Translations under genes and position numbers: made by a program
Shown here: positions 11,618 to 39,356 of the stretch, one piece after another
Numbering within the stretch: the first letter of the stretch is position 1
Layout of the letters: each line of letters opens with the position of its first letter
Origin: an uncultured Prevotellaceae bacterium
GTDB lineage: Bacteria > Bacteroidota > Bacteroidia > Bacteroidales > Bacteroidaceae
Assembly: GCA_900316475.1 (NCBI GenBank)
Contig: ONDA01000018.1
Coordinates: forward strand, 1-64,000
DNA: 64,000 nucleotides
Direction: 5' to 3'
Notes under the pieces: model-generated
Told to the model about the DNA's origin: nothing
Databases searched by the model: none
Seen by the model: the letters and a program-made list of their open reading frames with translations, nothing else

Positions 11618-11685
11618 GTTACTTCGTCTCGGCAAAAAAAAGAATGTTTTCTTTTGTTTTGCTCTCGACTTTTCGTAACTTTGCA
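11618..11685 (+). repeat. Promoter-bearing intergenic repeat, copy 1
   Basis: About 68 bp, from GTTACTTCGTCTCGGC through an A tract to CTCTCGACTTTTCGTAACTTTGCA. It is identical to 19878-19945 apart from one A in the tract. It carries a full consensus promoter: TTTG, 19 bases, TAACTTTG (11676-11683). No gene of convincing quality follows before 12124. Confidence 0.75.
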
Positions 11686-19877: not shown

Positions 19878-19945
19878 GTTACTTCGTCTCGGCAAAAAAA
19901 AAGAATGTTTTCTTTTGTTTTGCTCTCGACTTTTCGTAACTTTGC
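19878..19945 (+). repeat. Promoter-bearing intergenic repeat, copy 2
   Basis: Same sequence as 11618-11685 with one extra A. It contains TTTG, 19 bases, TAACTTTG (19937-19944) and probably drives the small ORF at 19972 and the nuclease at 20087. A diverged relative with another TAACTTTG lies just upstream (19853-19860). Confidence 0.7.
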
Positions 19946-19971
19946 ACAGTCATTGAAAAGCGAGTACAACT

Positions 19972-26290: not shown

Positions 26291-27535
26291 TTACATTTTC
26301 GGCATTTTGCCCTTCATGGCCGCTGCCATCTGAGCCATCTTCGACGAGCCCATGCCGCTGACCATGCGCATCATCTTTCGCGTCTGGTCGAACTGTTTCA
26401 TCAGGCGGTTCACGTCCTCTATCTTCGTGCCCGAGCCACGGGCGATGCGCAGGCGTCGGCTCTGGTTGATGATGTCCGGATTGGCACGCTCCTTAGGCGT
26501 CATCGAGTTGATGATGGCCTCGATGCCCTTGAACGCATTGTCATCAATGTCGATGTCCTTGATGGCCTTGCCCACGCCGGGAATCATCGATGCCAGTTCC
26601 TTGATGTTACCCATCTTCTTGATCTGCTGAATCTGTCCCATGAAGTCGTCGAAGTCGAACTTGTTCTTGCGGATTTTCTTCTCCAGCTTCTTCGCCTCCT
26701 CCTCGTCGAACTGCATCTGTGCACGCTCCACGAGTGACACCACGTCGCCCATGCCGAGGATGCGGTCAGCCATACGTTCGGGGTGGAACACGTCGATGGC
26801 CTCCATCTTCTCGCCGGTACCCACGAACTTGATGGGCTTGGTGACGACGGTACGTATTGACAGGGCAGCACCACCACGGGTGTCGCCGTCGAGTTTCGTC
26901 AGCACCACGCCGTCGAAGTCCAGACGGTCGTTGAACTCCTTGGCGGTGTTCACGGCGTCCTGACCCGTCATGGCGTCGACCACGAAGAGCGTCTCGTCAG
27001 GGTTGATGGCCTCCTTCAGTCGGCTGATTTCGTCCATCATCTCCTCGTCAACGGCCAGACGGCCGGCGGTATCGACGATGACCACGTTGTAAGCCTCCTG
27101 CTTGGCCTTACGGATGGCATTCTGGGCTATCTCCACCACGTTCTTGTTGCCCTCCTCGGTATAGACGTCTACGCCTACGGTCTGGGCAACGACCTTCAGC
27201 TGCTCGATAGCGGCAGGACGGTAGACGTCGCAGGCCACCAGCAGCGGGTTCTTGTGCTGGCGCGTCTTGAGCATATTGGCCAGCTTGCCGGTAAACGTCG
27301 TCTTACCAGAGCCCTGCAGACCCGACATCAGGATGATGGCCGGACGGTTCTCCAGCTTCAGTTCGGCAGCCTTGCCACCCATCAGTTCCGTCGCAACCTT
27401 GTAGTTCACGTCGGCGTCGAGCAGTGCGCGGCGCACGTCCTTCAGCGTCTCAGCAACGTTTATCTCGGTGATTTTCCCTTCACCTTTCAGTATTTTGAAC
27501 GACCGTTCCAGCCGTTCGCTTAAGTTCTCAAACAT
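26291..27535 (-). CDS. ffh: Signal recognition particle protein Ffh with a shortened N domain
   Basis: Ffh is the SRP GTPase that binds signal peptides. The 414 residues include the P-loop [49 protein letters not shown] and a Met-rich M domain (SRRLRIARGSG, ending GKMPKM). Normal family members run VNxxVA, then about 35 residues of N-domain helices, then ELxxLMGG. Here VNYKVA is joined directly to TELMGG, still in frame. The promoter box TACCTTTG is at 27566-27559. Either the deletion is real and tolerated, or it reflects an assembly collapse. A 5' duplicate lies at 38979-39356. Confidence 0.9.
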   Translation of the reverse strand: MFENLSERLERSFKILKGEGKITEINVAETLKDVRRALLDADVNYKVATELMGGKAAELKLENRPAIILMSGLQGSGKTTFTGKLANMLKTRQHKNPLLVACDVYRPAAIEQLKVVAQTVGVDVYTEEGNKNVVEIAQNAIRKAKQEAYNVVIVDTAGRLAVDEEMMDEISRLKEAINPDETLFVVDAMTGQDAVNTAKEFNDRLDFDGVVLTKLDGDTRGGAALSIRTVVTKPIKFVGTGEKMEAIDVFHPERMADRILGMGDVVSLVERAQMQFDEEEAKKLEKKIRKNKFDFDDFMGQIQQIKKMGNIKELASMIPGVGKAIKDIDIDDNAFKGIEAIINSMTPKERANPDIINQSRRLRIARGSGTKIEDVNRLMKQFDQTRKMMRMVSGMGSSKMAQMAAAMKGKMPKM

Positions 27536-27629
27536 AATACCAGTTTTAAATGAGGCTGCAAAGGTAGTGAAAATCTATTGAAACTGAAAATTAATTAGGT
27601 TTTATTTTAACTTTTTTTTCCTCTTATTA

Positions 27630-27661
27630 TTTGGCTGTTTTTTAAAAATGTCGTATATTTG
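27630..27661 (+). promoter_or_regulatory. Promoter of the peptide-biosynthesis operon
   Basis: TTTG (27630-27633), exactly 20 bases and TATATTTG (27654-27661). No other consensus promoter was seen in the plus strand through 37408, so it may drive the whole operon. It is divergent from ffh. Confidence 0.75.
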
Positions 27662-27677
27662 CGCTCAAATAACAGTG

Positions 27678-27998
27678 ATGAACGAACCGAGCATCAACTC
27701 TCATAAGGTTATCAACAGGCGGAAATTCGGCACCCTCCGCTGTTTGCGGGAAAAGCTGGTCGCCAACTGGTGCCTGAAACGTTCACGGCTGGTCTATGCC
27801 ATCGCCTCTCGATACAAGAAGGGCGAAGTGCGCATCAACATCGCCATGCGGTGTCGCGACGACAGCAGTCAGGACTGGGGGCACGCCTGGGTGACCTGCG
27901 ACGGGAAGCTCCTTTGGGAGCGAAAGACCGCCATCATAGAAAAGCCCAAGACGATGATAGCCGACACGGGGAAGTTCATTTACTGGGTACTAAACTGA
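27678..27998 (+). CDS. Lasso-B2-like (transglutaminase-fold) leader protease
   Basis: The 106 residues align in pattern with lasso-peptide B2 proteins: NWCLKRSRLVYAI (Cys32, the CLxRS motif) and GHAWVTCDGKLL (His69, Asp75) would give a Cys-His-Asp triad. B2 enzymes cut the leader from a RiPP precursor together with a PqqD-like B1 partner, and such a partner is encoded 1 kb downstream. ATG 27678 is used; the frame from 27648 overlaps the promoter. The gene begins the operon and ends 6 bp before the first radical SAM gene. Family assignment is by motif only. Confidence 0.75.
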   Translation: MNEPSINSHKVINRRKFGTLRCLREKLVANWCLKRSRLVYAIASRYKKGEVRINIAMRCRDDSSQDWGHAWVTCDGKLLWERKTAIIEKPKTMIADTGKFIYWVLN

Positions 27999-28004
27999 AA
28001 AGCT

Positions 28005-28955
28005 ATGGCTAACCTATATTTAACACACAAATGCAAACGCGGCTGTCCATTCTGTTTCGCACGGAAGGTACTGAAAGCGGCCGACGACGTCAACGAGATC
28101 CTGACGTTGGAGGAGATAGAGAAGTTCCTTGACCATTTCAAGTGCGAGATCAGGGACATTGGCCTGCTGGGCGGTGAACCCTTCCAGTATCCGCGGCTGA
28201 TAGACGTCATCGAACTGCTGAAATCGCGCCACATACACGCTAAGATCTTCACCAGCGCCACCGACCCCCTGCCGGAAGGACTGGAGGACTTCGACAACTC
28301 GTGTGGCCACATCAACTTCGTCGTCAACGTCGGCGATCGCAGCACCTATAACGACCGGCAGTTTGCCAATCTGGAACACTTCTTCAGCAAGTTCCACCTG
28401 GCATCGGCGCTGTCATACACCATCTTCGACCTGGAGAAAGACAACCCGGAGTTTCTGTTCGACATGATCGACCGCTACCAGCTGGTGCGCAACATCAGGA
28501 CGGGCATCGCACTGCCTATCTACAAAGGTGGCAACCAGTATATCGACCTCGACGACTATAAGCGAGCAGGCGAATACTTCTGCAAGTGTTCGGAACAGGC
28601 TGCCAAGCGCCACATCACCATGTCGATGGACTGCGGCTTCCAGGCCTGTATGTTCGACGACAAGCAGATAGGCCGACTGACGCGTCTGGGAGCCGGCATC
28701 GGCTTCATGTGCGGCGCCGCCCTCGACATCGGCCCGGGTCTGCAGGCCTGGAACTGCTTCCCTCTGTTCCAGCTGGGACGCGTCAACGCCCTCGACGCCA
28801 AGAACATGGCCGAACTCAAGGACATGCTCAACGCAAAACTGGAGGAGACGCTGGGCAGCCAGCCCGGCGTGCGCCGCGAGTGTGCCGTCTGCGACCTGTT
28901 CCGCCGCCAGCTGTGCGAAGGCGGCTGTAAGAGTTTCAAATCCGTCAATTCATAA
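28005..28955 (+). CDS. Radical SAM peptide-modifying enzyme 1
   Basis: This 316-residue protein has a radical SAM cluster motif CKRGCPFC (Cys10, 14, 17), the GGEP motif (LLGGEPFQYP) and a C-terminal Cys cluster ECAVCDLFRRQLCEGGC typical of a shortened SPASM-like auxiliary cluster region. It is followed 9 bp later by the PqqD-like gene and then the precursor. Likely role: radical-mediated crosslinking or other modification of the tyrosine-rich core (inference). It is paralogous to the enzyme at 33099, sharing the start M-x-N-L-x-L-T. Confidence 0.85.
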   Translation: MANLYLTHKCKRGCPFCFARKVLKAADDVNEILTLEEIEKFLDHFKCEIRDIGLLGGEPFQYPRLIDVIELLKSRHIHAKIFTSATDPLPEGLEDFDNSCGHINFVVNVGDRSTYNDRQFANLEHFFSKFHLASALSYTIFDLEKDNPEFLFDMIDRYQLVRNIRTGIALPIYKGGNQYIDLDDYKRAGEYFCKCSEQAAKRHITMSMDCGFQACMFDDKQIGRLTRLGAGIGFMCGAALDIGPGLQAWNCFPLFQLGRVNALDAKNMAELKDMLNAKLEETLGSQPGVRRECAVCDLFRRQLCEGGCKSFKSVNS

Positions 28956-28964
28956 TACCACAAT

Positions 28965-29216
28965 ATGGAAATCAGTAAGAACGTCACATGGAAGCCGTTA
29001 GGCGAGAAGATTGTTGCCGTCAAAGTCGACAGCGGGGAGTATTACACGATGAACGAAGTGTCCTCCCTCATCTGGCGAGGCATCAACGACGGTAAGACCG
29101 TCGACGAGATTGCCGTCCTCATCAGTCAGGAATACGACAACGACGATACCGAATCTATCAAGAAAGATATAGAAGAACAAATTAGTGAGTGGAAACAAGA
29201 ATTATTAATCCTTTAA
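28965..29216 (+). CDS. PqqD-like RiPP leader-recognition protein
   Basis: The 83 residues have the PqqD/RRE pattern: MEISKNVTWKPLGEKIVAVKVDSGEYYTMNEVSSLIW with the beta-strand/helix order, then VDEIAVLISQEYDND followed by a helix. These proteins bind the leader of the precursor peptide and present it to modifying enzymes. It is directly upstream (11 bp) of the precursor and pairs with the B2-like protease as a B1 equivalent. Confidence 0.88.
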   Translation: MEISKNVTWKPLGEKIVAVKVDSGEYYTMNEVSSLIWRGINDGKTVDEIAVLISQEYDNDDTESIKKDIEEQISEWKQELLIL

Positions 29217-29227
29217 TCAAGTAGCGT

Positions 29228-29371
29228 ATGGAAAGAAAAGCTTACATGAAGCCTGCCACCAACAAGCACGCTTCTATGGATGTGGTACAAGGTTCCGGCC
29301 TGTACTACACCTCGCTGTACTATTCTTTGTACACCGTAACGCTGTACTACACCTATTATTATTATCGCTAA
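29228..29371 (+). CDS. Tyrosine-rich RiPP precursor peptide
   Basis: This 47-residue peptide has no ORF-length signal but sits exactly where a precursor is expected, between the PqqD-like and kinase-like genes. The N-terminal leader (residues 1-24) reads MERKAYMKPATNKHASMDVV and then QGSG. The C-terminal core (25-47) is built from LYY[T/S] repeats: LYYTSLYYSLYTVTLYYT, then YYYYR. Eleven of the 23 core residues are Tyr; the rest are Leu, Thr, Ser, Val and a final Arg. There is no Cys, Asp or Glu in the core, so neither a lasso ring nor thioether chemistry is expected. Tyr side chains are the obvious radical SAM target. Confidence 0.85.
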   Translation: MERKAYMKPATNKHASMDVVQGSGLYYTSLYYSLYTVTLYYTYYYYR

Positions 29372-29380
29372 GCGACAATA

Positions 29381-30361
29381 ATGGGGAAGAACTTCTCTGT
29401 AAGCATTAAGGTTGCAGGTGTCTTTATCCGGTTTACGTCAGACTTGGATATAGACATCTGCCATCTTAAGATGCTTTTCAAACATCACGTCATCGAGACA
29501 GCTGACGACACCCTGCCCTGTCATGAAGTCAATATCGTGGGAACGACCGAGCGCGTCATTCCCAGTGATGCCCGTCTGGTATGGAAGGGTTACTACCATG
29601 CCGTCGGACACCGAGGCGACCACGGCAGCGACGTCAAGAAATACGTCTCGGCCGACGGCTCCACGGAGTATTTCGAGTCGAGAGGCGGCGAATGTATTGT
29701 CAACGACCTGGCAGCCGGCAAGACCACCTGTCACATGGTGCTGAAGCAGAAACGGCTGTCGAAAGCGAACATCCGCTCCAACATCGACGCCATCGTGATG
29801 CTGCTCACGCATGTCATCATGGCCTACCACCGCCGCTATACCCTGCACGCCTCAGCCGTCGTCTGGCGCGGGCGGGCAATCGTCTTCACAGGACGTAGCG
29901 GCCAGGGCAAGAGTACACTCTGCACCGACCTGGTGGCACAGGGGGCCGGCTTTCTTGGCGACGACATCGTGTTTCTCTATATGGACGGCGGACAGCCACG
30001 GGTAGCCTCGCTGCTGTTCGATGCCAAACTCTTTGAGAGCAGCAAGACCGACAAGGACTTTGTCGACATCCTGAAGCGATACGACTGCGAGAAGATTGAC
30101 AGCGCACCGCTACAGGCTATTGCCGAGATAGAACAAACCAAAGACGGCCCTTCTGCCGTCAAGGTCAATCCCAACGAAGAACGCCTGCTCGACGTGCTGC
30201 TGACATCAGCCAACAACATTGCCCTGCAGTACGACCACAACGACTGGCTGTCGCTGTGCACCTGTATCATGCAGGAGTACCGGCTCCACACCTTCTGCTT
30301 CGGCGACAGGAAATTGCTGAACAAGCAGGTGCTTGACAGCTTCTTCGACTCACAAGCATAA
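29381..30361 (+). CDS. HPr-kinase-like protein of the peptide cluster
   Basis: The 326 residues carry a C-terminal kinase-like domain with Walker A GRSGQGKST (about 171-179) preceded by HASAVVWRGRAIVFT and followed by FLGDDIVFL, the HPrK signature of adjacent acidic residues. HPr-kinase-like enzymes in lasso clusters phosphorylate precursor or product side chains. The Ser/Thr/Tyr-rich core offers many acceptors, but the true substrate is unknown. It starts 9 bp after the precursor. Confidence 0.85.
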   Translation: MGKNFSVSIKVAGVFIRFTSDLDIDICHLKMLFKHHVIETADDTLPCHEVNIVGTTERVIPSDARLVWKGYYHAVGHRGDHGSDVKKYVSADGSTEYFESRGGECIVNDLAAGKTTCHMVLKQKRLSKANIRSNIDAIVMLLTHVIMAYHRRYTLHASAVVWRGRAIVFTGRSGQGKSTLCTDLVAQGAGFLGDDIVFLYMDGGQPRVASLLFDAKLFESSKTDKDFVDILKRYDCEKIDSAPLQAIAEIEQTKDGPSAVKVNPNEERLLDVLLTSANNIALQYDHNDWLSLCTCIMQEYRLHTFCFGDRKLLNKQVLDSFFDSQA

Positions 30362-30365
30362 CAGC

Positions 30366-31415
30366 ATGAAAAACGGTCGGTCCTTCAGGCAGCACATCAG
30401 GAACAGATGGGTGAAACTCAAGGCGAAACTCATGCTGCCGTTGAGACGCACCGACCTGGCCGGAGCGCTCACCATCGAACTGACCAACCACTGCACGTTG
30501 GCCTGCACCTGCTGTCCCAACGGTCGCGACAGCAGCCATTGCCGATCAAAGCATACGCTGGCGAAGGACGACTTCGAACCATTGCTGAAGCAGATTGACA
30601 TACCCTTCAGCCATGTCTTCCTCCATCTGCACGGTGAGCCGTTCCTCAACAAGGACCTGCCGGCGATGGTGGAACTGCTCGTCAAGAGAGGCGTCAGCAA
30701 GTTCACCGTTTTCAGCAATGCCTACCGCCCCTCTCTCGACATTCTCAGCCAGATGCTCGACAAGCTCGGCGACAGCGAGCTGGAGCTGTGCTTCTCGGCT
30801 GAGCTTTACGACAAGCAGACCTACGAGCGGCTGCGCCATCCCGGGAATTTCGAGACCGTCTGGCAGTCGCTGGAGGAGATTGACCGTCTGACGGCGTCGC
30901 ACGACCAGCGCTTTTCGCTCATCAGCATCATCGACAGTCAGGCGATAGCAACCCTTAGCACCGCCGTTCCGGAGCTGTTCCGACGGCTGCGACAGCTGAA
31001 GGACATCCACTTCAGCAGTGCCTTCCCCTGGCCACACCTGCCTGAGACCGGTGACATTGCCGGCCATCTCAGCAGCAGGCGAGCCGTCTGCAGCCAGATC
31101 TGGCAACTGCCCGTCATCCTGGCGTCCGGCGAGGTCAGCATGTGTAGCAGCGACTACCGTGGCGAGTGCATCGTCGGCTCATTGTGGGAACATACCTACA
31201 GCCATCTGATGAACAACAGGAAGGCACGTCTGTTCCGGCGGCACATAGCCACCCGTCGTGCCGACCGCAACACCATCTGCGAGGCATGTCTGATAGACCG
31301 TCTCAACATCTTCTCAAAAACCGTACGCAGGAAGTTCATTGAAGAAGCCAAGCCTGCCACTCTGGAGAAGTATTTTGCCACCTATAATAAATACTTTGCC
31401 ATCGATGGACAATAG
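30366..31415 (+). CDS. Radical SAM/SPASM-type enzyme 2
   Basis: This 349-residue protein has the radical SAM motif CTLACTCC (Cys43, 47, 50) after LTIELTNH, and GEPFLNKD. The C-terminal half has Cys residues in CSSDYRGECIVGS and ICEACL, consistent with SPASM clusters. ATG 30366 starts 4 bp after the kinase stop; the frame from 30333 begins with TTG. It differs from the other two radical SAM enzymes in its long basic N-terminal extension. Confidence 0.85.
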   Translation: MKNGRSFRQHIRNRWVKLKAKLMLPLRRTDLAGALTIELTNHCTLACTCCPNGRDSSHCRSKHTLAKDDFEPLLKQIDIPFSHVFLHLHGEPFLNKDLPAMVELLVKRGVSKFTVFSNAYRPSLDILSQMLDKLGDSELELCFSAELYDKQTYERLRHPGNFETVWQSLEEIDRLTASHDQRFSLISIIDSQAIATLSTAVPELFRRLRQLKDIHFSSAFPWPHLPETGDIAGHLSSRRAVCSQIWQLPVILASGEVSMCSSDYRGECIVGSLWEHTYSHLMNNRKARLFRRHIATRRADRNTICEACLIDRLNIFSKTVRRKFIEEAKPATLEKYFATYNKYFAIDGQ

Positions 31416-33084
31416 ATACGGAAAACTAAAGAACGAACTGGAAGTGCTGAGTCTGGTGTGGCACAATGCCAAGGGGCAGCATCTCCGACTGACGACAGCC
31501 ATGCTGCTGGAGATCGTCATCGGCCTGTTTCCGCCATTGGCCATCTATCTGCTCCAAAGAGCGGTAGGACTGAAAGCTACCAATATCGAAGCCCTGCTCA
31601 CCCGCGAGAACATCATCCTGGTTCTGGCCGTCTTCCTGGTCTATATCGTCCTGACCAAGCTGTCGCGCATACTCACGGCCTACGCAATGGCAGAGGTGGA
31701 GTACGGCCTGCGGACGGCCTTCGTCGCGGCGCTCAAGCGGAAATCCTACAGCGAAGTCAACAACCGCATGGGTCTGCAGTCGTCGAATGGCCTGACACAG
31801 GAGACGTCGATGGCCAGCAGCCTCATACCAATGGTCTACCGCTCCTTCATCCGCGCCACCTGCACCATCCTGGCCTTCTGCGTGCTGCTGTTGCTGCTGT
31901 CGCCGCAGTTCTTCCTGGTGGTGCTGTTCCTATCGGCAGCAGTGCTGCTGTCGGTGACCTTCCTGCGCAGCCGCATCAAGCATATCCACCAGGAACTCTA
32001 CAACCGCATCAGCTCGCTCTACCAGCTGTTTGCCGAGTGGGTCAACGGCTACCGCATCTTCCGCGTCTACGGCACGCTGGAGTTTGCCGTGAACCGTATG
32101 CAGGAGGTGTTCCAAGCCATCCGCAGCACCTCGCGGCGGCTCGCCTTGATAGCCAATTGCCAATCGGTCGTTGGCGAGATGCTCACCTACAGCGTGGCAG
32201 CAGCCATCATCCTTCTGATGCCTGCCAACGACGGTGTCATCGACCTGGGAATCCTCATCTCCTACCCTACCGCCGTACTGTTTATCCGCGGCGAGGCCAT
32301 GATGGTTATCGGCGGCTACCAGCAGCTAGCCAACACCGAGAGCAGCATCCGACGGCTGTTCAAGGTCATCAAGGGCGACGACAGCGAAGACACGTCACCC
32401 CTGCAGGTGGGCCATGTGGCAAGCATCACCTTCGACAACGTGACGTATGCCTACCATACCGACGACGTCGACCACGAGATACTGAAAGATGCCTGTCTCA
32501 GACTGGACAAAGGACGACTACACGTCATCACAGGCCCCAGCGGCACTGGCAAGACGACGACGCTGAACCTGCTGCTCGGACTGCTGCACCAGCAACAGGG
32601 GCACATCAGCATCGCCGAGGACGACAGCGACGACGGCCGCAGCGGCATCGCCCTCGTCGAGCAGGAGCCTTTCTTCTTCGACGGCTCCCTTTACGACAAC
32701 CTCTGTATGGGGCGCACGACGGTTGACAAGGCCGACGTCATGCACTATCTGGAGGTGCTCCATCTGTCACACCTCTTTCCCACTGAGGACAGCCTGACCA
32801 AGCCAATGGAACTGCTGGCACGCAAACTGTCGTCAGGCGAGAAACAGCGACTGGCCTTCATCCGTGCCCTCATCGGCCGGCCGTCGGTACTCATCGTCGA
32901 CGAGATCACCAGCAACATCGATGCCGACACGTCGCTGCTTATCACGCAGCAACTGAAAGCGATCGCACAACAGATACTGGTTGTGGCCGTCAGCCACGAC
33001 CCGATGCTCATCGGTGAGGCCGATGACATACATACGCTGGAGGACAAGACCTTCACAACAAGACAACAGACAAAGAAAACCTAA
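31405..33084 (+). CDS. ABC exporter (fused membrane and ATPase domains)
   Basis: The 559 residues have about six transmembrane helices (residues about 30-310) followed by a complete ATPase domain: GPSGTGKTTTLNLLLG, Q-loop LVEQEPFF, signature LSSGEKQRLAF, Walker B VLIVDEITSNID and H-loop VAVSHDP. There is no N-terminal C39 peptidase domain, so leader removal is presumably by the B2-like protein. The start overlaps the radical SAM 2 stop by 11 bp. Likely exports the mature peptide. Confidence 0.9.
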   Translation: MDNRYGKLKNELEVLSLVWHNAKGQHLRLTTAMLLEIVIGLFPPLAIYLLQRAVGLKATNIEALLTRENIILVLAVFLVYIVLTKLSRILTAYAMAEVEYGLRTAFVAALKRKSYSEVNNRMGLQSSNGLTQETSMASSLIPMVYRSFIRATCTILAFCVLLLLLSPQFFLVVLFLSAAVLLSVTFLRSRIKHIHQELYNRISSLYQLFAEWVNGYRIFRVYGTLEFAVNRMQEVFQAIRSTSRRLALIANCQSVVGEMLTYSVAAAIILLMPANDGVIDLGILISYPTAVLFIRGEAMMVIGGYQQLANTESSIRRLFKVIKGDDSEDTSPLQVGHVASITFDNVTYAYHTDDVDHEILKDACLRLDKGRLHVITGPSGTGKTTTLNLLLGLLHQQQGHISIAEDDSDDGRSGIALVEQEPFFFDGSLYDNLCMGRTTVDKADVMHYLEVLHLSHLFPTEDSLTKPMELLARKLSSGEKQRLAFIRALIGRPSVLIVDEITSNIDADTSLLITQQLKAIAQQILVVAVSHDPMLIGEADDIHTLEDKTFTTRQQTKKT

Positions 33085-33098
33085 AAATACAGAAGACT

Positions 33099-34064
33099 AT
33101 GCCAAATTTAATGCTCACAAACTTTTGCAACTACCATTGCCCCTACTGCTTCGGCATGGATATGATGGCTCCCAAGAAGCAGCGTTCGACGATGACCAGA
33201 GAGACTTTTACGGGTATCATCGACTGGCTGGAACGCGAACCCTTCGACCGCGTCATCCATCTCATGGGCGGCGAGCCGACGCTGCACCCCGATATCGAAT
33301 GGATTGTCGACTACCTGCTGGAACGCGACCTCCACATCACCATCTTCAGCAACATGGCTACGAAGCAGGCGGTGTCGCTGGCCGAGAAGATTTCCATCCT
33401 GCCCATCTACTGGGTGGCCAATGTCAACAACCCCGCCAAATGGACACCGGCACAGCGCGACAATATCGAGCACGCCTTGAAGGCGGCAGGCAAGCGGGCT
33501 TCGCTCACGTTCAACATCATCCCTGAGGAGCCCAACGAGCTATGGGCCCTCGACCTGATAGAGCGCTTCGACCTCGACCGTAATATTAAGGTGGGATTCG
33601 TGCTGCCTACCCTCACCTCGTCGAACATGGCACTGAAGGACACCGAATACGACATCGTGGCACAGCGCGTCGTCGACCTGGTGAAAGCCGGCGAGTATAT
33701 GGACGTCAGTATCAAGTACGAGTGTGGCGTTCCCTACTGCAGCTTCACCGACGAGCAGCTGGGATTCCTGTGGCGCCACAACTCGAAAATTTCCTCAGGC
33801 TGCCAGTCGCGCCTCGACATCACACCAGAGGGAGAGGTGATGTACTGCCTGCCCCTGGCGACGGCCGGCCTGCGCCACTACACGGAGTTCAAGAGCTACC
33901 CCGAGTGCCGCACGTGGTTTGAGAACCGCTTCCGGCCCTATCGCATGCTCGGCAACCGCATCGAATGTGCCGACTGTATGCTCAACAATCCGATTGCATG
34001 CAACGGTGCCTGTCTGGCAAAAAACATGATTGGTGCCAACAACGTACAGATTGTCGACAAATGA
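33099..34064 (+). CDS. Radical SAM peptide-modifying enzyme 3
   Basis: This 321-residue paralogue of enzyme 1 begins MPNLMLTNFCNYHCPYCF (Cys10, 14, 17, the same positions as in enzyme 1) and has MGGEPTLHPD. The C-terminal cluster is ECADCMLNNPIACNGAC. The two paralogues probably act on different residues or steps. The last four bases overlap the ATG of the next gene (ATGA). Confidence 0.85.
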   Translation: MPNLMLTNFCNYHCPYCFGMDMMAPKKQRSTMTRETFTGIIDWLEREPFDRVIHLMGGEPTLHPDIEWIVDYLLERDLHITIFSNMATKQAVSLAEKISILPIYWVANVNNPAKWTPAQRDNIEHALKAAGKRASLTFNIIPEEPNELWALDLIERFDLDRNIKVGFVLPTLTSSNMALKDTEYDIVAQRVVDLVKAGEYMDVSIKYECGVPYCSFTDEQLGFLWRHNSKISSGCQSRLDITPEGEVMYCLPLATAGLRHYTEFKSYPECRTWFENRFRPYRMLGNRIECADCMLNNPIACNGACLAKNMIGANNVQIVDK

Positions 34065-35566
34065 ATATTCCCGTGTCCTTGCGACGGCGCAACACCTGGC
34101 TGCTACTTGCCGCCGGTCTGATGTTCTGGCTGCTCAACGCGCTGACGTGTATGTTCTCCGACGACTATCCCGTCTCGTTCGGATTCCGCGACTACGGCAT
34201 TGACCTGACAAAGCCTGTCAGGACTTTTTCTGACGTGGTGGTGTCGCAGTACTACCATTACCTGACACAGCACGGACGCGTATTGACAATAGGCACCGAC
34301 CAGCTGCTGATGACACTGCGCTGCAAGCCCGTCTTCGACGTGCTCAACACGCTGTTCTTCGTTGCCTTTCTTTATCTGATACAGGTCTTCTCACGTCAGC
34401 GCGGCTGGGCTACGGTCCTGCTGGCACTGGCATTGATGTTCGGACTGTTCAGGGCCTTCGGCGAGGTGTTCCTCTGGCAGACGGGCAGCATCAACTACCT
34501 GTGGGGCATCGTTCTGAACCTCGTCCTACTCTATGCCCTCTATCGCCACCGCGACAGCAACCGCCTGTGGCCGTCGCTCTGGCTGACGCTTTTCGCCTTC
34601 GTGGTCGGCACGTGGCAGGAGAGTTTCTCTATTGGCATCGGCGCCGCACTGGTCATCGGACTGTCCTACAGTCTGTACCGCCGGCAGCAGCAGCACATCG
34701 TCCCCTGGCTGGCTACCATCGCCTATCTGGCAGGCATCCTGTTCTATGTCGCCTCACCAGGCACGCAGGAACGGGCCACCATCGCCGGTCTCGACCTGAT
34801 GTCGGCTGTCGTGGGACTGGGCGGCGGCATCCTCTATGTTCTGGCTGGCCAGCGCATCTTCTGGATACTCGTCGTGACACTGTTTGTCCGCTTCCGCAAG
34901 AACCGCGAGGGTCTGAAAGACTTTGTCCGCGACAACTGGTTCTTCCTGACGGCCATTCTCTTCCAGATGCTGTTCCTGATGTTTGTCGGCAAGACGGCCG
35001 AACCGCGGGCGTTCTTTGGCATCGAGTCGTTCTCGCTCATCCTGCTGTTCAAGGCACTGCCCCCGCTTTCCGACCGTATCGGCATCGCGGCAGGCATCGT
35101 CTTTCTGGCCGTCTATGCGCTGGTTGTCCATCTCACATGGAACAACTACCGCGCCATGCAGGACTTCTATGCCGAACTCGACCGCAGCGACGGACTCGTT
35201 TTCTTCGACATCCCCCAATACACCCGCACAGACAGGCACTACCTCGGCTCGTCGCTGCTCATCAACCACCAGCGTTCGCTGTTTAATGCCGAAGCCGCCT
35301 ATTACGGCAAGGACTTTATCATGGTGCTGCCCAAGCGTCTGTATCAGGAGCTGTATCTCACGTCATCGTTCATCTGTCCTGAAAACCGTACGGCCCCGTG
35401 GCAGTACACCACTCCCGAGCTGAACTTCATCGTTGTGCCCCTGAAACGTGACGGACGTCTCCCACAATCGAAATATGGCTGCGAGATTGTTACCTTCCCT
35501 TCAGGCCGCTATGCCCTGATGAATAAACCCAAACGATACCTCAAGAGACATGCAGACCGAGAATAA
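34061..35566 (+). CDS. DUF6056-like polytopic membrane protein
   Basis: This 501-residue protein has about ten hydrophobic helices. The first periplasmic loop carries CMFSDDYPVSFGFRDYG and YLTQHGRVLTIGTDQLL; a DD motif after helix 1 is typical of GT-C glycosyltransferase-like proteins and of DUF6056. The last 100 residues form a soluble domain. Glycosyl transfer to the peptide or to another envelope substrate is possible but unproven. ATG 34061 overlaps the previous stop. Confidence 0.75.
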   Translation: MNIPVSLRRRNTWLLLAAGLMFWLLNALTCMFSDDYPVSFGFRDYGIDLTKPVRTFSDVVVSQYYHYLTQHGRVLTIGTDQLLMTLRCKPVFDVLNTLFFVAFLYLIQVFSRQRGWATVLLALALMFGLFRAFGEVFLWQTGSINYLWGIVLNLVLLYALYRHRDSNRLWPSLWLTLFAFVVGTWQESFSIGIGAALVIGLSYSLYRRQQQHIVPWLATIAYLAGILFYVASPGTQERATIAGLDLMSAVVGLGGGILYVLAGQRIFWILVVTLFVRFRKNREGLKDFVRDNWFFLTAILFQMLFLMFVGKTAEPRAFFGIESFSLILLFKALPPLSDRIGIAAGIVFLAVYALVVHLTWNNYRAMQDFYAELDRSDGLVFFDIPQYTRTDRHYLGSSLLINHQRSLFNAEAAYYGKDFIMVLPKRLYQELYLTSSFICPENRTAPWQYTTPELNFIVVPLKRDGRLPQSKYGCEIVTFPSGRYALMNKPKRYLKRHADRE

Positions 35567-36545
35567 GCCCACCGAAACCGACAGACAGGCCGACGACCTG
35601 GCTCGCACGCTGCTCGTCCTGAACAACTACGACTGGCTGAAGGACGAGGCCAAAGCCGTTGGCGTAGAGATTATCCCCATCAAGGGCATCGACCTCTTAC
35701 AGACAGTCTATGCCGAACATCTCGACCGCTTCGTGCGCGACATCGACCTGCTCTGCACCAGCGAGGCCGACTGCCGCCGACTGGTGGAACGGCTCTGCCA
35801 GGAGGAATACCGACTGGAGTTCCCGTTCTCGATGCGCCCCGAGGTGTTAGCAGCCAAGCAGAAGGTGTCGCTGCTGTCGTGCAGCATGACGAAGGTGAAT
35901 GTCGATATCCACACAGCCTTCGTCACCAAGAAGTTCTTTGCTAAGACTATCGGAGCCTTCAATGCCGATGCGCTCACGCGCTGTCGCAAAGGTCACATGG
36001 AGGCGACCGACCGCTGGCTCTTCCTGGCTCAACACGCCGCCTTCCACCTCTTCAGCGACGGTAAGTGGACGCGCGACCTCATGGTGCTCCTCCTTCCCCT
36101 AGACGGCACACAGCACATTACACTCACCGAAAAGGCAACTTTATATGGTTTCAGACGCGTCATGGCAGCAGCCCTGTGTCATGTCTGTAAAGGACTGCCA
36201 AAACAAGGACAGGCTGCACTTGCGGCCTTGAAGCCTACAGCCTCTGAGCAACGTTTCCTTTCATTTGTCCGTCATTTCGACCGTCCCTTTTCACGCCATG
36301 CTTTCGACCGTCTTATCGCTGCCTACTGGGAGTTTGTCTTTATTGACCGTCGCATAGCTCGCCTCTCAGCATGGCTGAGACTGATATTCCCCGATAAAGG
36401 TATGCTGTCAAACATCTATAAGATTAAGAGGCCGGTGTCTGTTCTGATGTTCTACCCTCTCAATATTCTCATAGTTGGCCTCACCAGCCTCGTATTCTTG
36501 TCTGTTTACTGTTCCGTAACAACCCTTTCTCGCAAATCAATATGA
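35550..36545 (+). CDS. Nucleotidyltransferase-like protein (NTP_transf_5 family)
   Basis: The 331 residues have the family motif: IPIKGIDLLQTVYAEHLDR, then FVRDIDLLCTSEAD (KG..., R..DIDLL at about residues 40-65), followed by VDIHTAF. Such proteins recur in RiPP clusters, especially lasso clusters, with unknown chemistry; nucleotidylation of the peptide is the favoured guess. The start overlaps the DUF6056 gene by 17 bp. Confidence 0.85.
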   Translation: MQTENKPTETDRQADDLARTLLVLNNYDWLKDEAKAVGVEIIPIKGIDLLQTVYAEHLDRFVRDIDLLCTSEADCRRLVERLCQEEYRLEFPFSMRPEVLAAKQKVSLLSCSMTKVNVDIHTAFVTKKFFAKTIGAFNADALTRCRKGHMEATDRWLFLAQHAAFHLFSDGKWTRDLMVLLLPLDGTQHITLTEKATLYGFRRVMAAALCHVCKGLPKQGQAALAALKPTASEQRFLSFVRHFDRPFSRHAFDRLIAAYWEFVFIDRRIARLSAWLRLIFPDKGMLSNIYKIKRPVSVLMFYPLNILIVGLTSLVFLSVYCSVTTLSRKSI

Positions 36546-37408
36546 GAAACAGCCTGTCCGTTGCCGTTATCAATACTCTGTCGTATCTTCCCCTACGCAT
36601 GCTTTACTTGGTAGCCGACGGGCTTTTATATCCGCTGACTCGTTATCTCATACGCTATCGGCGAACGGTGGTGGAGAATAATCTGGCGCTAGCCTTTCCC
36701 GAAAAGAGCGACGAAGAGCGACTGAAAATGGAAAAGACCTTCTACCATCATCTCTGCGACTTATTGGTGGAAATCATCCGTATGCGTCGTATGAGTATCG
36801 ACGAGCTACAGAGGCGATTCCAATGGAAGAATCTCGACACGGTCGTGCAAGTATGTGTAAGCGAAAAGAAGACCGTTCTGTGCTACTTTGCCCACTATGG
36901 ACAATGGGAATGGGCGATTGGAAGTATGACACCTGATCAAGCGGTACGTCCGCTGTATATCTACAGCAAATTACATAACGACAGCCTGAACCGCTGGATG
37001 CAGGACTGTCGTTCAAGATTCGGTAACACCCCCGTTGGTATGCAGGATACTTCCAAAACCATTGGAGAGCTGCAACAGAAACAGACTGCAAGTATAGTTA
37101 TCGCTATTGCCGACCAACTGCCAAAAGAGCAATATGTCCGCCATTTCCATCGCTTTATGGGCATCAAGACCAAGGTTCTTACAGGCACCGAGCAACTCAT
37201 CAGGAAATACGACATGAACGTGTTCTATTGTCGTGTAGAACGCATCAAACGAGGTTACTACACCTGTACTGCCGAACGGATGACAGCCGCTGAAGCATCC
37301 TCTAGCCATGACTGGCCTTATACCGATGCCTATTTCGACCGGCTTCAACAACAAGTGTACCAACGGCCAGAACTGTGGCTATGGTCACACAACAGATGGC
37401 GCCGATAA
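36542..37408 (+). CDS. Lysophospholipid acyltransferase-like protein (LpxL/HtrB family)
   Basis: This 288-residue protein has the acyltransferase pattern FAHYGQWEWAIG (HxxxxE, about residues 118-123), an N-terminal hydrophobic segment and RFMGIKTKVLTGTEQLI, as in Bacteroidota LpxL-like enzymes. ATG overlaps the previous stop (ATGA). It is the last gene of the operon, before a convergent pseudogene. In the cluster it might lipidate the peptide; alternatively it acts in lipid A synthesis and simply follows the operon. Confidence 0.82.
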   Translation: MRNSLSVAVINTLSYLPLRMLYLVADGLLYPLTRYLIRYRRTVVENNLALAFPEKSDEERLKMEKTFYHHLCDLLVEIIRMRRMSIDELQRRFQWKNLDTVVQVCVSEKKTVLCYFAHYGQWEWAIGSMTPDQAVRPLYIYSKLHNDSLNRWMQDCRSRFGNTPVGMQDTSKTIGELQQKQTASIVIAIADQLPKEQYVRHFHRFMGIKTKVLTGTEQLIRKYDMNVFYCRVERIKRGYYTCTAERMTAAEASSSHDWPYTDAYFDRLQQQVYQRPELWLWSHNRWRR

Positions 37409-37427
37409 AAAATCCAAGCCCCTGGTA

Positions 37428-38978
37428 TCACTTCACCAGAACTTTTTGCCCGTTGACGATATAGATGTCTTGACTCTTCATGGCAGAGGAATATACTCTA
37501 GTGCCTTGAAGGGTGAAGACACCTTTAGCATGGGGGGCTGATTCCGCTACTGTCTGAATAGCATCCGGTTGTTCTGACGCATCGGTACAGGTGAGAGCGA
37601 TGTGGTCAAAAAAGAGGTGGGGAGCACTGGCCGAACCCACATTGGCAGCGTTGTAACCAATGGAGATTTTCCCATGTGTTTCTTCAGTTAGGCGAAAAGT
37701 GGTCGTGGCTGTCTGCCAAGCTCCGGCAGCAACGTTGACAGCAGAAGTATAAGGAATGCCATCGTCAGTGATAAACCCCGTAAGACTACTGGCATATTCT
37801 TTACCAGTGTTGGTGTTATAGACAGGAACAGTGAGAGTATAAGATCCTGACGGAAGTGTTACATCCTGATAGTAGTTGCAGTTAGGGGCCGACCATACGC
37901 CAAAGATGCCCAGGCAACGGCCAGTATTTCCTCCATCGGGATTCTTTGTCGGTGCCCCTTTTTGATTTCCCCTGAAAACGTTAGACGAACCATAGGCGAA
38001 GACACCCCCACCCTGTGCGGAGTTAGCATAGCCCCTTTCGTCGGTAACGCCGCTCTCGCCTGCCGTCCACCCTGTGACGGGCTGCATACTATAGACGGCA
38101 CCAGCCGACATATCCTTGCCATAGCCGTAAATGTCGGTCGTCACGACAGGTCCCTCACTGAAGTCGGCGTTTCTGATATATGTGGCGGTGACATCCTTCT
38201 GGGTGGGCTTCTGAACGCGCACGGTCTTGACCTTCCCGTTCTCTAACCAGACGCGAATGGTCTCATCTTTCTTTATGACGCAGTCGTTGAGTACCACATT
38301 CAGGATGGAGATACTAACGGTGGCATCGGCTGTAGCAGTGATGTAGGCAGACGTGGCATCGATGAGCTGAGCCGTGACATGGCTACCTGACACGAGGACA
38401 GACAAGGGCTGTGCCACGGAGTGGTTCTCAGCGAGGCTGAACGTCACTGTTGCCTTGCTGTTATCGATAGTAGTAGGCTCATAGAAAACTGGAGCTGCAC
38501 CTTGGAACTGGAAGTCCTTCAACTGGGCGTTTTCCTCACCCTTAAAGTTGCTGACGAGGAAATAGCTGCGGTCGGCATCGGGGGCGATGACGCCATTCCA
38601 TCCTGCAGGCAGCTGATCCTTCAGCGGCAGCAGACGGTGGGTCAGTTCACGGGTCTGCTGGGCATTGACATTACTGTAATAGACGAGATGGCGTGCGTCG
38701 ACGATGTGGCCCTTCCTCACGGTGCGCGAGGTATTGCTATACATGGGATAGAGTTTCGAGGTGAAGATGGAGTTGTTGGCACTGCGGTGGCCAAAGCCTA
38801 TCTTCTTGCCATTATTAGCAGAGACGACGCCCAGGGCGTTATCGATATTCACCCAGCTGCTCTCAAAGGTGGTGAGGGTGTTGCCGTCGAGCTGTGTGCT
38901 GACTGTCTCTCCGTCCTTGTCATAATAGAGGGTGCGCTTGAGTTTCATCAGCTCGTCGGTAGAGATGGCGAGCAGACA
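37428..38978 (-). pseudogene. 5'-truncated secreted protein gene with type IX-like tail
   Basis: An open frame of 506 codons from ATG 38948 extends in frame upstream ([10 protein letters not shown]) to about 38978, where it is cut by a copy of the ffh 5' end. No signal peptide remains. The middle is beta-rich and contains a carbohydrate-binding-like domain (residues about 270-440, VTGWTAGESGV..., FFDHIALTC). The C-terminus GVFTLQGTRVYSS...DIYIVNGQKVLVK resembles a type IX sorting tail. Probably the C-terminal part of a large secreted glycan-active protein whose 5' half was lost. Confidence 0.7.
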
Positions 38979-39356
38979 GTCTGGGCAACGACCTTCAGCT
39001 GCTCGATAGCGGCAGGACGGTAGACGTCGCAGGCCACCAGCAGCGGGTTCTTGTGCTGGCGCGTCTTCAGCATATTGGCCAGTTTACCTGTGAACGTCGT
39101 CTTACCAGAGCCCTGCAGACCCGACATCAGGATGATGGCCGGACGGTTCTCCAGCTTCAGTTCGGCAGCCTTGCCACCCATCAGTTCCGTCCACCGTGTC
39201 TGTGAAGTTTTTGGCAACCTTGTAGTTCACGTCGGCGTCGAGCAGTGCGCGGCGCACGTCCTTCAGCGTCTCAGCAACGTTTATTTCGGTGATTTTTCCC
39301 TCACCTTTCAGTATTTTGAACGACCGTTCCAGCCGTTCGCTTAAGTTCTCAAACAT
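38979..39356 (-). pseudogene. Duplicated 5' fragment of ffh
   Basis: The minus strand from ATG 39356 repeats the first third of ffh almost exactly (MFENLSERLERSFKILKGEG), with [13 protein letters not shown], which the main copy lacks, and then a frameshift into [10 protein letters not shown]. It ends near 38979 within VVAQTV. A box TACTTTTG (39454-39447) lies upstream. It is non-functional as Ffh and fused out of frame to the truncated gene downstream. Confidence 0.85.

Follow-up and report, generated by a model that had tools for sequence, protein, structure and literature searches.

We analysed a stretch of 64,000 nucleotides of contig ONDA01000018.1 from an uncultured Prevotellaceae bacterium (assembly GCA_900316475.1), hereafter the window, and in it a cluster of eleven plus-strand genes (27678-37408) that includes a short tyrosine-rich open reading frame (ORF). 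All eleven genes are open and stand in the order given by the initial annotation, which had described them as overlapping or lying within about 15 bp of each other behind a single consensus promoter. Successive neighbours are indeed at most 14 bp apart or overlap, the gaps from first to last gene being 6, 9, 11, 9, 4, -11, 14, -4, -17 and -4 bp. The promoter was recovered as well: a pattern scan placed TTTG-N20-TAnnTTTG, which we take to be the Bacteroidetes-type consensus, at 27630-27661 on the plus strand, the single plus-strand match in 27400-37500 (four on the plus and eleven on the minus strand across the whole window), and the chance of a match in the shuffled 145-bp intergenic stretch is 0.01. 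The strict pattern also precedes the first gene in two of ten other clusters tested (L009 and L010) and is absent there from the remaining eight.

The first gene (27678-27998) would encode a B2-like, transglutaminase-type protein and predicted leader peptidase. Its ORF has a first ATG at 27648, and the longer ORF would overlap the promoter; because this upstream ATG falls within the promoter match, 27678 is the most likely start of the gene. Next come rS1, a radical S-adenosylmethionine (SAM) enzyme of SPASM type (28005-28955), a PqqD-family protein of the stand-alone RiPP recognition element (RRE) kind (28965-29216; RiPP, ribosomally synthesised and post-translationally modified peptide), the 47-residue precursor peptide (29228-29371), an HPr-kinase-like protein, predicted to be a Ser/Thr kinase acting on the core (29381-30361), and rS2, a radical SAM/SPASM enzyme (30366-31415, most likely starting at ATG 30366 rather than TTG 30333). 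They are followed by an ABC exporter with permease and ATPase domains (31405-33084; PF00664, 1.6e-14; PF00005, 3.2e-23), which showed no peptidase domain among its Pfam matches, by rS3, a radical SAM/SPASM-type paralogue of rS1 (33099-34064), and by a predicted accessory protein of family DUF6056 (34061-35566; PF19528, 4.6e-55). The last two genes would encode an NTP_transf_5 nucleotidyltransferase-like protein (35550-36545; PF14907, 1e-10) and a second predicted accessory, an LpxL-like acyltransferase that matches lipid A acyltransferases (36542-37408; PF03279, 4e-28).

The precursor family and its distribution

A first search with the 47-residue peptide returned 11 relatives, and a profile built from 16 sequences returned 171 at E<=1; the leader and core statistics given here cover 120 listed relatives of these 171, aligned on QGS. 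The listed precursors are short (31-78 amino acids) and share the leader consensus Y-x-K-P-x-T-x-K/R-H-x-S/A-x-N/D-x-V-Q-G-S, with Y conserved in 117, P in 119, T in 118, H in 119, V in 117 and QGS in all 120. YxxP is found in 118 leaders, and the Tyr lies exactly 15 residues ahead of the Gln in 117. Pairwise comparison of 11 of the leaders from the 12 clusters described below, which yields pairs that are not independent of one another, gave 407 synonymous codon differences against 243 that were not (63% synonymous, where random single changes would give 21%). Judged by this alignment, the leader of the window precursor would extend to about G22 and the tyrosine-rich repeat core would begin at about S23, at a predicted cut site.

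The cores of the family are rich in Tyr (40%), Leu (18%), Thr (14%) and Ser (10%), and are organised around a five-residue unit, L-Y-x-(T/V/S)-(S/T). Of 374 spacings between successive L-[Y/H] dyads, 277 are five residues, whereas shuffled cores gave a mean of 10.6 such spacings, and a single core holds up to nine L-Y dyads (P0184). Among the 277 units, position 2 is Tyr in 264 and His in 13, residues that the dyad search itself fixes there; position 3 is Tyr in 213 and varied in the remainder; position 4 is mostly Thr (188), Val (43) or Ser (20); and position 5 is mostly Ser (148) or Thr (97). The commonest C-termini are YYYH (42) and YYYY (24). A constant leader joined to a variable repeat core gives these peptides the appearance of RiPP precursors. 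Fifteen diverse members were scanned and gave no Pfam match and, in NCBIfam, one weak unrelated match (TIGR00049, 0.024).

Two known peptide types were considered and rejected. For a sactipeptide or ranthipeptide, Cys is absent from the window core and makes up 0.7% of family core residues. Spliceotides, from which tyramine is excised, are marked by a YG splice motif, and the window precursor contains no YG.

Eleven other genomes of Bacteroidales carry the core genes, completely or partially. We counted 12 clusters, window included, after merging pairs of loci that, judged by length, are one and the same contig (L009/L022, L010/L028, L012/L023, L013/L021 and L014/L050); one scan of contigs with rS1 gave 7 loci, and genome searches added L041, L051, L052 and L059, all in one other Bacteroidales family (f26). 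Gene content was assessed by tblastn, and as L013 is cut by a contig end some counts refer to the 11 untruncated clusters. The B2-like, rS1, PqqD, precursor and HPr-kinase-like genes are present in 12/12 clusters, and rS2, rS3 and NTP_transf_5 in 11/11 untruncated ones, of which eight also have the ABC gene, six DUF6056 and four the acyltransferase. In L041, L051, L052 and L059 rS3 adjoins rS1 instead of following rS2. A fourth radical SAM gene, rS4, is found in 7/12 clusters. The precursor ends in His in six of these seven and in Arg or Lys in all five clusters that lack rS4, the rows not being independent.

The initial annotation had made its reading hang on homologous clusters with a conserved short tyrosine-rich ORF, and these exist. 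Because the ORF sits between pqqD and hprK in 12/12 clusters and has 171 profile relatives, we take the 47-residue ORF to be a genuine precursor.

The distribution of the cluster is patchy. At E<=1e-20, rS1 was found in 6/100 relative genomes (the source genome counted, and one of the five others close to it), and at E<=1e-60 in 5/297 genomes of f26 and 2/183 genomes of the order; rS3 was found in 1/301 genomes of the family, the source genome counted. The exact pattern MDVVQGSG occurs in 5/398 genomes of the same genus, again with the source genome counted (reversed-pattern control, 0). Among the source names attached to rS1 or precursor proteins are Paludibacteraceae, Bacteroidaceae, Prevotellaceae, Tannerellaceae, Dysgonamonadaceae and one Verrucomicrobiae record.

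Leader handling and the lasso peptide comparison

Several proteins of the cluster resemble those of lasso peptide systems. The PqqD protein matches PF05402 well above its cut-off (1.3e-14, 54.7 bits versus 23.4), and its best NCBIfam matches are two lasso PqqD models, both below their cut-offs; a stand-alone PqqD-type RRE (B1), as in lasso systems, is thus present. The HPr-kinase-like protein matches TIGR04352 (7.1e-09) and the HPr kinase C-terminal domain PF07475 (1.3e-05), both below the curated cut-offs. HprK homologues and a nucleotidyltransferase are known tailoring partners of lasso peptides (PMC8498205), the kinase BsfK is reported to phosphorylate Ser3, aided by B1 (PMC10368454), and the lasso leader motif YxxPxL occupies positions -17 to -12, with Ile or Val possible at -2 (PMC10368454). 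If the cut is assumed to be VQG|S, the leader Tyr and Pro of the present family fall exactly at -17 and -14; Thr stands in place of Leu at -12 in 118/120 leaders, and Gln at -2 for this assumed cut, a position that in lasso leaders is taken by Thr (or Ile/Val).

The likeness is closest to phosphorylated or glycosylated lasso peptides (paeninodin, pseudomycoidin and BsfA), which match the cluster in the stand-alone PqqD-type B1, a transglutaminase-like B2 (predicted here), the HPr-kinase homologue, the nucleotidyltransferase and the ABC exporter, as well as the YxxP spacing under the assumed cut. The handling of the leader therefore probably works like that of a lasso system. The weakest point in the reading of the initial annotation is the assignment of the B2-like protein as the protease, for which we have weak profile matches and an invariant Cys/His pair. 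The window protein matches Transglut_core3 at 2.5e-4, below the cut-off, and also lies below the cut-off of lasso_biosyn_B2; among nine relatives PF13471 was found in six (best 3.6e-06) and lasso_biosyn_B2 in four (best 2.5e-05), and Cys42 and His79 are invariant in 9/9. A fold search with its predicted structure, a weak model, turned up nothing useful.

The system differs from those lasso peptides by its three radical SAM enzymes (four where rS4 is present), by Thr at -12 and by Gln at -2, and it fails on defining features of the class. In 9/9 genomes tested (9 of the 12 clusters) the cluster contig carried no match to PF00733, the Asn-synthetase-like cyclase, no Asn-synthetase-like gene was seen between the cluster genes, and the window core holds no Asp or Glu acceptor near core position 7-9. 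As there is neither a PF00733 match on the cluster contig nor an acceptor carboxylate in the window core, the cluster is not a lasso system. One could still envisage a divergent lasso pathway with its macrolactam cyclase encoded elsewhere in the genome, since PqqD, the B2-like, HPr-kinase-like and NTP_transf_5 proteins and the YxxP spacing are all lasso features. However, we regard this as very improbable: in eight of the nine genomes the PF00733 matches are on contigs other than that of the cluster, and the ninth has none, a test limited by contig ends, and Asp or Glu, absent from the window core, was found by script parse in 12/120 listed cores, among which P0217 is an artefact of an earlier QGS.

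Radical SAM enzymes and the proposed pathway

Radical_SAM was matched above cut-off in rS1, rS2 (PF04055, 2.6e-09) and rS3 (PF04055, 1.1e-11), and SPASM by Pfam in rS2 alone (PF13186, 7.3e-07); among the NCBIfam matches listed, no radical SAM model reached its cut-off for the cluster proteins. Across 24 proteins of the rS1/rS3 type, CxxxCxxC is accompanied by eight further Cys of SPASM type (seven invariant and one nearly so). A SuiB-like fold was obtained, which does not show function. In the phylogeny rS3 forms a clade separate from rS1 (100/100).

Radical SAM/SPASM maturases are also found in triceptides, the three-residue cyclophane RiPPs. According to PMC11002830, the triceptide maturases link an aromatic ring to the C-beta two residues further along; they accept Tyr and His, and their partner residues include Ser. 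The enzymes described (XncB, OscB, MscB, YxdB and HaaB) act on aromatic-x-x motifs, Tyr and His included, with Ser as a third residue. By analogy, the five-residue unit, with Tyr or His at position 2, mostly Thr, Val or Ser at position 4, and Tyr and Ser as the commonest residues at positions 3 and 5, would fit a triceptide-type cross-link, a compatibility that is no proof. The present system differs from triceptides in its tandem five-residue repeats, two paralogous radical SAM enzymes in every untruncated cluster, a lasso-type leader and a kinase-like protein; moreover, its third residue is mostly Thr or Val, and its cross-link is a prediction from genes. We know of no triceptide-type case in which Thr or Val is the partner.

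The SynChlorMet (Scm) cassette and WgkABC likewise combine a PqqD-family chaperone with radical SAM/SPASM maturases, and weak NCBIfam matches to ScmC, ScmD, ScmE, ScmF, WgkB and WgkC were obtained, all far below the curated cut-offs; unlike in those systems, no such precursor model matched any of the 15 precursors scanned. The poly-cyclopropylglycine peptide of TvgA/TvgB (and TigE) differs in that TvgB joins the two methyl groups of Val, whereas position 4 of the repeat is here mostly Thr.

Taking these lines together, we consider it somewhat probable, from the sequences, that the cluster is a RiPP pathway whose leader is handled as in lasso systems, bringing the peptide to radical SAM enzymes that likely form cross-links at Tyr within each five-residue repeat. 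The steps that follow are all suggested by the protein families and by conservation. PqqD would bind the leader via Y6 and P9. On the L-Y-x-(T/V/S)-(S/T) units, rS1 and rS3 would then act. The bond would most likely run from the ring of the Tyr or His at position 2 (and perhaps from position 3) to the beta carbon of the next residue but one, and rS2, with rS4 where present, would make a further change. The HPr-kinase-like and NTP_transf_5 proteins would phosphorylate and then decorate Ser or Thr, the B2-like protease would cut close to VQG|S, and export of the product would fall to the ABC protein in the clusters that have it, DUF6056 and the acyltransferase being optional extras.

The same RiPP architecture would also serve radical SAM enzymes that epimerise residues to D-forms, or that oxidise or cleave Tyr side chains, so that the product would be a helix, a pigment or a small molecule derived from Tyr. 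We hold this to be a tentative and rather unlikely alternative: EpeE ranks well below SuiB in the fold comparison, bearing in mind that fold shows no function, and up to nine L-Y dyads would be an odd source for a single small molecule.

An independent hint on the substrate comes from distant rS1/rS3 relatives (about 28-36% identity), inspected in eight loci, five of which have a Tyr-rich repeat neighbour (L042-L045 are all from one genus). In L026 (4415-9943) and L027 (2617-7586) the repeat proteins have 54/152, 48/134 and 72/168 residues as Tyr, with an RR-type N-terminus that resembles a Tat signal, and stand with a second radical SAM enzyme (with a Pfam SPASM match in L026), a partner that belongs to no Pfam family and a protein that we take to be GT9-like. 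These two loci would represent a second, apparently unnamed Tyr-repeat modification system. In L042, L043 and L045 the neighbouring protein has a Tyr/Ser repeat flanked by an RR-type signal and a C-terminal domain, and its gene lies near rS1-like and second radical SAM genes; the L045 protein ends in PF07603 Lcl_C, and the L042 and L043 proteins resemble each other on visual inspection. In L044 the neighbour's repeat is Gly-rich (10 Tyr in 120), whereas neither L024 nor L025, the latter a 3.9-kb contig, has a Tyr-rich repeat neighbour.

Such long, probably exported repeat proteins, one ending in Lcl_C, would also suit a structural or surface-modifying role, as opposed to a small secreted peptide. 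The envelope would then incorporate the mature Tyr-rich rods, anchored with the help of DUF6056 and the LpxL-like acyltransferase, whose genes adjoin the operon in the window. That role is improbable in our view, given that DUF6056 and the acyltransferase are missing from five and seven, respectively, of the 11 untruncated clusters, and that the listed precursors are so short.

The view of the initial annotation that the locus holds complete RiPP logic was supported: a short peptide that pairs a conserved leader with a variable repeat core is encoded beside a stand-alone leader binder and tailoring enzymes, with the ABC gene in most untruncated clusters. So was its remark that the combination was unfamiliar, as the leader and core strings were absent from the literature searched and the 15 scanned precursors had no related Pfam or NCBIfam model. 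The literature search, with most subscription papers outside its reach, found nothing matching this system. The lasso leader spacing, the five-residue core repeat and the distant relatives near Tyr-repeat proteins go beyond that annotation. With its lasso-type front end, several radical SAM enzymes and Tyr-repeat core, the pathway would likely be a RiPP type of its own.

A bolder proposal, which we consider doubtful, is a new RiPP class in which lasso machinery has been rewired to radical SAM chemistry, the two paralogues stapling every L-Y-x-T-S repeat into a rigid cyclophane rod, rS4 closing the C-terminal His and the same clade acting elsewhere on large exported Tyr-repeat proteins. If the predicted pathway is correct, the lasso leader module (RRE, B2-like protease, HprK and nucleotidyltransferase) could be exchanged among chemistries that are unrelated to each other. 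Tandem Tyr repeats would then be a new type of radical SAM substrate in Bacteroidales, where to our knowledge few RiPPs have been characterised. Nature has varied a single repeat across the 120 listed precursors, from which the rule of the enzymes could be directly readable.

Flanks of the cluster

A minus-strand gene of 506 amino acids with a weak DUF5013 match (37428-38948) adjoins the cluster, and a similar gene follows the L009 cluster. Both flanks carry ffh sequences, the main copy at 26291-27535 and a 5' fragment at 38952-39356, each on the minus strand. Compared with L009 and L010, the main copy is short by about 102 bases and the fragment by about 80, with gaps that start at the same place, and the source genome, which is 91% complete, yielded no intact ffh; the pair reflects either a misassembly or a real duplication. 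Elsewhere in the window, a direct repeat of 69 columns (98.6% identical) lies at 11618-11685 and 19878-19946, about 8 kb apart.

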